Shown: positions 44,427-51,925 of the stretch, one piece after another | Layout of the letters: the number at the start of each line of letters is the position of its first letter | How positions within the stretch are numbered: the stretch's first letter is position 1 | NCBI RefSeq assembly: GCF_003058225.1 | Contig: NZ_QBUG01000008.1 | Location: forward strand, 1-64,000 | Length of the DNA: 64,000 bases | Reading direction: 5' to 3' | Source: Promicromonospora sp. AC04 | Lineage (GTDB): Bacteria > Actinomycetota > Actinomycetes > Actinomycetales > Cellulomonadaceae | Made by a program: the position numbers and the translations under genes | The notes under the pieces: generated by a model | Told to the model about the DNA's origin: nothing | Database searches by the model: none | What the model saw: only the letters and a program-made list of their open reading frames with translations

Positions 44427-44447
44427 TGTCAACCGAATGTCAGGACA
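44427..44447 (-). promoter_or_regulatory. operator and -35 of the transaldolase gene
   Basis: On the minus strand TGTCCTGACA is followed by five bases and TTGACA. The perfect TGTC/GACA dyad and its spacing to TTGACA are the same as before iolC, which points to one shared regulator, probably the adjacent GntR protein. Confidence 0.7.
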
Positions 44448-44489
44448 AAGATCATCCGAACCGCACGCCGTGCACCGCGGGACGGCCGG

Positions 44490-45227
44490 TCAGCTCGCGA
44501 ACAGCGTGGTGTCGAACATGTACCGGGAGGCGCGGTAGATGTGCTGCCCGAACTCGATGCCGTGGCCCGAGTCGTCGTACGCCGTGCGCTCCATGGTCAG
44601 CAGCGCCGCGCGCGGCTTCTCGCCGAGCACACGGGCCTCGGCCGCCGTCGCCGTGCGGGCGCCGATGCGCTGCCGCGCCACCTTTGGCTTGGCGCCGCGG
44701 GCGCGCAGCAGGTCGTACAGCCCGTTCGTCGCGAGGTCCTCGGCGCTGGGAGCTATGTCCGGCGGGAGATAGTTGGTGAGCACCGCCAGCGGCTCGCCGT
44801 CGGCCATGCGCAGGCGCCGGATCATGACGACGTCGCTGCCCTCGGGCACCTCGAGCGCCTCGGCGACCTCGGCGGTCGCGAGCACGGCCCGGTGCTCGAG
44901 CACCTCGGTGCTGGGCTTGCGGCCGGACTTCGACAGGTCGTCGTGCAGGCTGGTCAGCTCGACCGGGCGGCGCACGCGCGTGGGGGCGACATGCGTCCCG
45001 ACCCCGCGCTGGCGGACGAGGCGGCCGCGCTCGACCAGGTCCTGCAGCGCCTGGCGCGCGGTGGGGCGCGAGATGCCGAGGCGGGCGGCCAGCGCCACCT
45101 CGTTCTCGAGGAATTCGCCGGGCACCATCCGCCCGTCATCGATCGCTGCGTCGATGGCGGTGGCAACCTGGTGGTACAGGGGCACCGGGCTCGACCGATC
45201 GAGGTCGATGCGCAGCGGCTGGGACAC
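44490..45227 (-). CDS. GntR/HutC-family regulator of the inositol genes
   Basis: The product has 245 residues: an N-terminal GntR winged helix (LYHQVATAIDAAI, LAARLGISRPTARQALQDLV) in residues 15-80 and a UTRA ligand domain (90-240). It is divergent from the iolC operon. HutC-type regulators bind small sugars or acids; in Actinomycetota GntR proteins named IolR control inositol genes, and a role here as the iol repressor is inferred from position and from three shared operators nearby. Confidence 0.87.
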   Translation of the reverse strand: MSQPLRIDLDRSSPVPLYHQVATAIDAAIDDGRMVPGEFLENEVALAARLGISRPTARQALQDLVERGRLVRQRGVGTHVAPTRVRRPVELTSLHDDLSKSGRKPSTEVLEHRAVLATAEVAEALEVPEGSDVVMIRRLRMADGEPLAVLTNYLPPDIAPSAEDLATNGLYDLLRARGAKPKVARQRIGARTATAAEARVLGEKPRAALLTMERTAYDDSGHGIEFGQHIYRASRYMFDTTLFAS

Positions 45228-45301
45228 GGAGGGCCTCCTTGCGGTGGTCTGGCTGTGGAAGAAGTCTAGCCGTGAATGGTATTGAAGACGGGATGTTCAA
45301 A

Positions 45302-45322
45302 TGTCAGGACAAATTCTTGACA
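45302..45322 (+). promoter_or_regulatory. operator and -35 of the iolC operon
   Basis: TGTCAGGACA, five bases, then TTGACA. The dyad and spacing match the transaldolase promoter exactly. A weak -10 (CAGGGT) may follow at 18 bp. The site is 83 bp before the iolC start. Confidence 0.7.
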
Positions 45323-45404
45323 GGATGGCGGGTCGCAGAGCAGGGTCGAGTCACCGGCGGCACCGGTGGTGCGCGCGGATCCGCGACGACGGGGATGAGG
45401 AAGC

Positions 45405-50286: not shown

Positions 50287-50294
50287 CCGTCCAC

Positions 50295-50350
50295 CGCACC
50301 ACACGACACCGCCAGACCACACCGCCCAGACCACACCGCCCAGACCAAGC
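50295..50350 (+). repeat. 14-bp repeat in the iolD-iolA spacer
   Basis: AGACCACACCGCCC recurs at 14-bp spacing with partial copies at both sides, filling the 80-bp spacer. The unit is not a multiple of three. Confidence 0.8.
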
Positions 50351-50366
50351 ACGAGCGAGGTTTCTC

Positions 50367-51869
50367 ATGTCCCTGATCACCCACTGGATCAACGGCAAGC
50401 CGGTCGACCCGTCCGGCGACCGCACCCAGCCCGTCTTCAACCCCGCGACGGGCGCCGAGATCGCGCGCCTCGGGCTGGGCACCGCCGCCGACGTCGACCG
50501 CGCAGTCGCCTCGGCCGCCGAGGCCTTCGAGACCTGGTCGCAGTACTCGCTCGGCAAGCGCACCGCCGTGCTGTTCAAGTTCCGCGAGCTGCTCGCCGAG
50601 CACACCGACGAGCTGGCGCGCCTGGTCAGCCGTGAGCACGGCAAGGTCGTCTCCGACGCCGCGGGGGAGGTCGGCCGCGGCCTGGAGGTCGTGGAGTTCG
50701 CCTGCGGAATGCCGCAGCTCCTCAAGGGGGAGTACTCGGAGCAGGCCGCCACGGGCGTCGACGTCTACTCGTTCCGGGAGCCGCTCGGAGTGGTCGCGGG
50801 CATCACGCCGTTCAACTTCCCGGCCATGGTGCCGCTGTGGATGAGCCCGGTGGCCATCGCCACGGGCAACACGTTCGTGCTCAAGCCGTCCGAGCGGGAC
50901 CCCTCCGCGTCGCTCTTCCTCGCGGACCTGTGGCAGCGGGCCGGGCTGCCCGACGGCGTGTTCAACGTCGTCCAGGGCGACAAGGAGGTCGTGGACGCGA
51001 TCCTGCACCACGACGACGTCGCTGCCGTCTCGTTCGTCGGCTCGACCCCGATCGCGCAGTACATCCACGCCACGGCCACCGCCGAGGGCAAGCGCGTGCA
51101 GGCGCTCGGCGGCGCGAAGAACCACGGCGTCGTCCTGGCCGACGCCGACCTCGACGACGCCGTCGACCACCTGACGGCGGCGGCCTTCGGCGCGGCCGGC
51201 GAGCGCTGCATGGCGATCTCCGTCGCGGTGGTCGAGGACTCGGTGGCCGACGAGTTCGTCGAGAAGCTCGCGGCCAAGGCCCGCGCGGTCAACGTCACGG
51301 CGGGCGACCAGCCGGGCGCCGACATGGGCCCCGTCATCACCGCCGCGGCCAAGGAACGCATCGAGGGGCTGATCGGCACCGCCGAGCGCGACGGCGCCGA
51401 GCTGGTCGTCGACGGCCGCGGCCACACCGTGCCGGGCTACGAGGGCGGCTTCTTCGTCGGCCCGACGGTGATCGACCGGGTCGCCCCGGAGCACGAGGTC
51501 TATCGCGTGGAGGTCTTCGGGCCCGTCATCGACGTCGTGCGCGTGTCCGGCCTGACCGAGGCGATCGACGTGATCAACGCGAACCCCTACGGCAACGGCA
51601 CGGCGGTCTTCACGAGCTCGGGCGAGTCCGCCCGCACCTTCCAGCGCGGGGTCCACGTGGGCATGATCGGCGTCAACGTGCCGATTCCCGTCCCGGTCGC
51701 CTGGCACTCGTTCGGCGGCTGGAAGGACTCTCTGTTCGGCGAGAGCCACATCTACGGCCCCGAAGGCATCCGCTTCTACACGCGCGGCAAGGTCGTCACG
51801 CAGCGCTGGCCGCACCGCGCCCAGCGGACGGAGGCGTCGTACCACTTCTCGGGGGACTCGCAGAAATAG
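50367..51869 (+). CDS. iolA: IolA/MmsA, methylmalonate-semialdehyde dehydrogenase
   Basis: The 500-residue aldehyde dehydrogenase is CoA dependent, with catalytic C281 in GERCMAIS and the family-specific sequences GITPFNFPAMVPLWM and GGAKNHGVV. It turns malonate semialdehyde into acetyl-CoA, the last step of inositol breakdown. The ATG follows AGCGAGG. It is the last gene of the first iol operon; the next promoter starts 25 bp after its stop. Confidence 0.94.
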   Translation: MSLITHWINGKPVDPSGDRTQPVFNPATGAEIARLGLGTAADVDRAVASAAEAFETWSQYSLGKRTAVLFKFRELLAEHTDELARLVSREHGKVVSDAAGEVGRGLEVVEFACGMPQLLKGEYSEQAATGVDVYSFREPLGVVAGITPFNFPAMVPLWMSPVAIATGNTFVLKPSERDPSASLFLADLWQRAGLPDGVFNVVQGDKEVVDAILHHDDVAAVSFVGSTPIAQYIHATATAEGKRVQALGGAKNHGVVLADADLDDAVDHLTAAAFGAAGERCMAISVAVVEDSVADEFVEKLAAKARAVNVTAGDQPGADMGPVITAAAKERIEGLIGTAERDGAELVVDGRGHTVPGYEGGFFVGPTVIDRVAPEHEVYRVEVFGPVIDVVRVSGLTEAIDVINANPYGNGTAVFTSSGESARTFQRGVHVGMIGVNVPIPVPVAWHSFGGWKDSLFGESHIYGPEGIRFYTRGKVVTQRWPHRAQRTEASYHFSGDSQK

Positions 51870-51893
51870 GAGCGATTTGACCTGTCGTAAATA

Positions 51894-51925
51894 TGTCTTG
51901 ACATAAGCCGACGTGCCGGTAGCGT
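51894..51925 (+). promoter_or_regulatory. promoter and operator of the inositol importer operon
   Basis: TTGACA (51898-51903), a 16-bp spacer and TAGCGT (51920-51925) form a good promoter. The -35 is embedded in TGTCTTGACA (51894-51903), the third TGTC-NN-GACA dyad in the window, within a longer ATGTC-TT-GACAT palindrome. Confidence 0.7.

Follow-up and report, generated by a model that had tools for sequence, protein, structure and literature searches.

IolR of Bacillus is a DeoR family protein and IolR of Salmonella an RpiR family protein; they resemble the regulator described here in name and in the pathway that they regulate, whereas the latter combines a GntR domain with a UTRA domain. 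A closer counterpart is IolR of C. glutamicum, reportedly a GntR-type repressor of the myo-inositol genes (as Klaffl is said to have described in 2013) whose operator consensus is said to read KGWCHTRACA. SCO6974 and SCO6256 of Streptomyces coelicolor are likewise said to be GntR regulators of myo-inositol catabolism. PMC8634428 describes repression by C. glutamicum IolR that myo-inositol relieves, and PMC6475665 and PMC5948850 report derepression caused by a point mutation in the IolR operator that precedes iolT1. According to PMC4494728, GT-N4-AC is present in most operators of the HutC subfamily, and operators are known in which a weaker half-site adjoins this palindrome. The locus studied here contains three TGTC-NN-GACA dyads that, judging from sequence comparisons, are very probably the operators through which the neighbouring IolR-type protein, a GntR/HutC-subfamily member, controls a single inositol regulon. 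As in C. glutamicum, the predicted regulator of the inositol genes is of the GntR type, but a transaldolase and ABC importers are among the predicted members of the regulon here.

The regulator is encoded by gntR (44490-45227, minus strand) within the window, i.e. the whole 64-kb stretch of DNA that was analysed. It belongs to the HutC subfamily and consists of an N-terminal GntR winged helix-turn-helix domain (PF00392, 52.9 bits against a cut-off of 27) and a C-terminal UTRA domain (PF07702, 139.6 bits against a cut-off of 23.8); among NCBIfam equivalog models, it falls below the cut-offs of PhnF (121.7 of 156.8 bits) and HutC (120 of 220 bits). The closest solved structure is 2ra5, which we presume may be that of SCO6256. 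The gene adjoins inositol catabolic genes, as iolC, iolB, iolD, iolA and iolG are all located in the window, and the GT-N4-AC sequence of HutC-subfamily operators is contained in TGTCNNGACA at all three predicted operators. The protein most probably belongs to the actinobacterial inositol regulons governed by GntR-type IolR proteins, with which it was compared, in the cases of C. glutamicum IolR and SCO6974, by description only.

Family models name iolC, iolD, iolG, a CoA-acylating methylmalonate-semialdehyde dehydrogenase (iolA/mmsA) and a sugar-type ABC importer, and a family-model match identifies the iolB product as a KduI/IolB family protein. On the plus strand, iolC (45405-47303) encodes a kinase fused to a Cgl0159-like aldolase domain and heads the iolC-iolB-iolD-iolA series, whose remaining members (47300-51869) are iolB (47300-48298), iolD (to 50286) and iolA/mmsA (to 51869). 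The fusion perhaps covers two steps of the pathway. The importer genes follow on the same strand (51975-54898; substrate-binding protein, permease and ATPase), and downstream of them are iolG (54966), an IolE-like gene (56016) whose product scores under its model's cut-off (153.9 of 290 bits), and a second GFO/IDH/MocA dehydrogenase (57034). The minus-strand transaldolase-family gene (43220-44326) matches PF00923, while its best score against the transaldolase models, 113 of 367 bits, is far below their cut-offs. We place its start by eye at the GTG codon at 44326, which has GGAGGA just upstream, instead of the ATG at 44404 that would give the longest ORF, because this is what the position of the promoter implies. 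Beyond this gene, two ORFs at 36041-41575 resemble alpha-galactosidases by eye, and a link to galactosyl-inositols would be a guess.

A scan of the 64-kb window yielded exactly three copies of the dyad TGTCNNGACA (TGTC-NN-GACA), at 44438-44447, 45302-45311 and 51894-51903, and no fourth copy was seen anywhere else in it; both the positions and the absence of a further copy agree with the original prediction, which had been made from the window alone. Its description of the promoters is also borne out, as the first two dyads are positioned 5 bp upstream of a TTGACA hexamer and the third overlaps one that is followed by a TAGCGT -10 element. At the transaldolase promoter (minus strand), the dyad TGTCCTGACA (44438-44447) precedes the -35 hexamer TTGACA (44427-44432) and a candidate -10 element, TCGAAT (44403-44408, spacer 18), that is identical in the orthologous promoters of relatives G048 and G117. 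At the iolC promoter (plus strand), the dyad TGTCAGGACA (45302-45311), which is also located within the upstream region of the divergent gntR gene, precedes TTGACA (45317-45322) and a candidate -10 element, CAGGGT (45341-45346, spacer 18), which recurs in G048 with a spacer of 17. At the importer promoter (plus strand), the -35 hexamer TTGACA (51898-51903) lies inside the dyad TGTCTTGACA (51894-51903) and is separated by a spacer of 16 from TAGCGT (51920-51925); in G117 the dyad is identical and the -10 element reads TAGCCT. In one orientation or the other, all three sites share the longer pattern CCTGTC-N7-TGTC-NN-GACA, whose third box, read as GACAGG, is the very TTGACA element found 5 bp away at transaldolase and iolC, where the -35 hexamer thus doubles as the third box. 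The third box of the importer site (CCTGTC, 51881-51886, plus strand, 7 bp upstream of the dyad) sits on the dyad's upstream side and is no -35 there. The composite matrix described below scores above 8 at only three places in the window, which are these sites, and is highest at iolC. The bare number of dyads in the window is weak evidence, because shuffled windows contain 1.05 dyads on average and at least three dyads occur in 10 of 100 shuffles.

The genome as a whole (6.85 Mb) contains 38 bare dyads as compared to 29 matches for a reversed control pattern, and the bare dyad was dropped as a genome-wide search key. The original prediction had named random occurrence through the genome as grounds for abandoning the operator reading; the bare dyad, with its 38 sites, does behave in this manner, whereas the dyad with a -35 element at fixed distance does not, since TGTCNNGACA-N5-TTGAC occurs exactly at only three places, namely transaldolase, iolC and C1:807950. 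Among the 35 dyads outside the window (12 in genes and 23 outside genes according to a crude ORF/GC3 filter), TTGAC is present exactly at +5 in this one distal case (dyad at C1:807960). The pattern TGTC-N7-TGTC-NN-GACA occurs exactly at four places, comprising the three window sites and C1:225102; the latter was set aside as a chance copy and falls within a 627-aa ORF that resembles HtpG by eye. Only exact matches were used, because mismatch searches also give many matches for their control patterns (19 matches against 17 for the extended pattern with at most one mismatch, and 58 against 36 for dyad-N5-TTGAC with at most two). These counts bear on the notion that the pattern arose by chance, GACA-like boxes being generated because TTGACA is a common -35 hexamer. 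The near-background frequency of the bare dyad in the window and in the genome is what chance would produce, but the exact composite is found only three times in the genome and, among the actinobacterial loci described next, TGTC exceeds every other dyad word before TTGAC several times over, and we consider this explanation exceedingly improbable.

The locus set consists of the best 80 of 558 GntR relatives, picked by GntR similarity with a search profile built from 16 family GntR sequences; all are from named actinobacteria, among them Streptomyces, Rhodococcus and Mycolicibacterium, and the counts in this and the following paragraph refer to this best 80 of 558. By tblastn, iolC is present in 53/80 loci, iolB in 52/80, iolD in 52/80 and sbp in 45/80, and 55/80 loci contain iolB, iolC or iolD; tal is detected in 5/80, several genera carrying the transaldolase-family gene in their inositol clusters. 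In the 250 bp that precede gntR, iolC, sbp or tal, the TGTC dyad occurs 58 times in 30,470 bases, as compared to 27 times in 1,455,495 bases elsewhere. It ranks first of the 256 W-NN-W' dyads upstream, is enriched there about 100-fold over elsewhere and is found in 52/80 loci (gene matches starting beyond residue 25 did not enter this ranking). The 85 distinct dyad sites in the loci are followed by TTGAC at a distance of 5 bp in 45 cases, 4 bp in five and 6 bp in two, with all other offsets up to 24 occurring once each or never, and the 52 such composites of the TGTC word compare with 7 for the next-best of the 256 words. The exact composite (4-6 bp) is present in 43/80 loci, including 36 of the 55 that carry iolB, iolC or iolD. 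A composite matrix, trained on 45 sites from the same 80 loci, scores at least 24 in 60/80 loci, 22 of them among the 37 that lack an exact composite; at the same score, each of 20 column-permuted matrices and the reversed sequence give 0/80, and 20/80 loci contain no match to the matrix. Several loci from Streptomyces, the genus of SCO6974 and SCO6256, carry a GntR gene, iol genes and, in place of the exact composite, the variant TGTCTTAACAAAGTATTGACA and similar sequences. In Mycolicibacterium and Rhodococcus loci (e.g. L058), a conserved AAGTNAGAA is located to the left of the iolC dyad and may belong to the promoter of the divergent gntR gene.

The arrangement of the composites bears on the direction of regulation. 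An iol, sbp, perm or tal gene is faced by 50 of the 52 composites, the count omitting genes whose match began after residue 40, and the other two appear before tal and sbp in the dyad listing; gntR is divergent on the opposite side of 40 of the 52. The same protein and operators could act in activation, in which case a dyad centred ~10 bp upstream of the -35 element would contact RNA polymerase. Activation would account for the near-fixed spacing (5 bp in 45 of the 52 composites) and for the recognised genes that the composites face, and a dyad upstream of the -35 element, as at two of the promoters here, occupies a position that activators use too. However, the position of the importer -35 element within its dyad favours a repressor, PMC8634428 attributes to C. 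glutamicum IolR a repression that myo-inositol lifts, and the title of one paper names SCO6974 as a repressor; activation is therefore unlikely in our view.

We infer repression because the importer -35 element lies within the dyad and because of the accounts of C. glutamicum IolR and SCO6974. In the model of repression, a GntR dimer would bind TGTC-NN-GACA. At transaldolase and iolC, where 5 bp separate the dyad from the -35 TTGACA downstream of it, the dimer would lie over the -35 element or directly against it, and at the importer promoter it would occupy the -35 element itself, which lies inside the dyad. When inositol (or a catabolite) is absent, GntR would thus block access of sigma/RNA polymerase to the three promoters, and perhaps also to its own divergent promoter in a form of autoregulation; a ligand, presumably inositol or a catabolite, would be accommodated by the UTRA domain and release the protein from its operators. 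The third box may contribute a further contact. That it is no -35 element at the importer promoter gives slight support to a genuine third half-site, the support being weakened by G117, where the box reads CCGGTC; with CCTGTC here and CCGGTC in that genome, its conservation is partial. The extra half-sites of HutC-subfamily operators (PMC4494728) differ from the extra box described here, which coincides with the -35 element at three of the four promoters identified in this genome, twice as GACAGG and, at the distal site, as GACCGG.

Within the family, 150 genomes were sampled, and 13 of them were classed as GntR-positive (match at E <= 1e-40). The exact composite is present in 8/13 GntR-positive genomes and in 2/137 GntR-negative genomes (Fisher p 1e-8, calculated for genomes that are related and hence not independent), while 5/13 GntR-positive genomes lack it. 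Matches to iolD at E <= 1e-150 were found in 13 of the 150 genomes; 12 exceed the model cut-off, and all 12 are in GntR-positive genomes, whereas the thirteenth (G074) is partial, scores under the cut-off and is located in a genome without GntR. One genome (G066) contains GntR and no iolD over the cut-off. In total, 22 composite sites occur in 10 of the 150 genomes, 20 of them in GntR-positive genomes; by tblastn, 19 of these 20 face tal, iolC, iolE, iolG or sbp8, and the twentieth (in G056) faces a frame that resembles an IolE-type TIM barrel by eye. The composites in the two GntR-negative genomes (G084 and G121, one each) face none of the tested genes by tblastn, and the reversed control pattern matches 3/150 genomes, so single composites are expected by chance. 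The protein of the window importer was matched in 2 of the 12 GntR-positive relatives (at 90% in G117 and 43% in G140), and the importer promoter is therefore comparable in one close relative only.

These distributions also speak to whether the dyads serve another regulator encoded elsewhere, with the adjacent GntR being a bystander. The composites of G084 and G121, which lack GntR, and the five GntR-positive genomes that lack an exact composite would fit such an arrangement. Nevertheless, the element and the GntR gene occur together across many genera as well as within the family, and the two exceptions are single sites of the kind that the reversed control also produces; another regulator is thus very improbable. 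The specificity of the composite, its conservation and its co-occurrence with GntR together support the predicted role of the shared dyad as an inositol regulon operator, and the adjacent GntR/HutC protein, earlier named as the likely binder, is the best candidate, as its relatives across the actinobacteria have iol genes and this dyad as neighbours.

The regulon extends beyond what the original prediction supposed, as an unlinked importer operon also bears the composite. This distal site (C1:807950; dyad TGTCCGGACA) precedes an operon that encodes an SBP_bac_8 solute-binding protein, two permeases and a 559-aa protein. On one strand, each of the window dyads agrees by eye with the reported KGWCHTRACA consensus, and TGTCCGGACA does not. 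The sbp8-permA-permB-p559 arrangement and its composite are conserved in the congeners G048 and G087. In a search of 22 genomes, made up of 13 from the genus (among them that of the window) and 9 GntR-positive members of the family, sbp8 is present in 5/13 GntR-positive and 0/9 GntR-negative genomes, which is weak taken alone. In two genomes of other genera (G140 and G027), a 71%-identical GntR is encoded by the next gene of the sbp8 operon, which ties the operon to the regulator independently of the motif; a composite was not found before sbp8 in either genome, and a dyad is located just before gntR in G140 and not in G027. A more far-reaching possibility, which we regard as less probable than not, is that TGTC-NN-GACA-N5-TTGACA constitutes one fixed operator-promoter module, in which the GACA of the -35 element would be recognised by an additional GntR subunit as well as by sigma, with a spacing of mostly 5 bp across actinobacteria, and which would also be present at unlinked operons such as that of the sbp8 importer, whose substrate would then probably be an inositol conjugate. 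The 559-aa protein is encoded at about C1 803091-804770 (L157 3092-4771) and is 82-89% identical in two congeners. It yields no Pfam match at E 5, and searching NCBIfam at E 1 gave nothing beyond a match of the kind expected by chance (E 0.17); its predicted structure, derived from a three-row alignment, was set aside (mean pLDDT 33.7).

The dyad/-35 composite and the distal operon are additions to a known kind of inositol switch. Neither the composite nor a transaldolase in this regulon was found in the available portions of the literature surveyed (PMC8634428, PMC6608401, PMC9430895, PMC4494728, PMC6295645, PMC6475665, PMC12298647, PMC5948850 and PMC6460773), which is no proof of absence. 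As a search key, the dyad with a -35 element at 5 bp finds inositol promoters in high-GC actinobacteria, a distant one included, whereas the bare 8-base dyad is lost in noise in such genomes. The composite suggests a role for an importer operon that includes the 559-aa protein lacking a Pfam match, and it represents a natural promoter design that is probably switched by inositol.

The assignment of GntR proteins to iol genes is not one-to-one everywhere, because G027 and G140 split two GntR proteins between sbp8 and iolD, the second one (54-56% identical) being encoded on the contig stretch that carries iolD. A second GntR class (L046, L047 and L048; 53-56% identical) is found on iolD-bearing contigs of G037, G140 and G027, and it is accompanied by TGTC dyads of its own, none of them followed by TTGAC exactly at +5. 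Upstream of sbp8 in two genera (L229 and L230), similar sequences of the form TTGTCCG..ACTCTTGACA are present and may represent a diverged operator.
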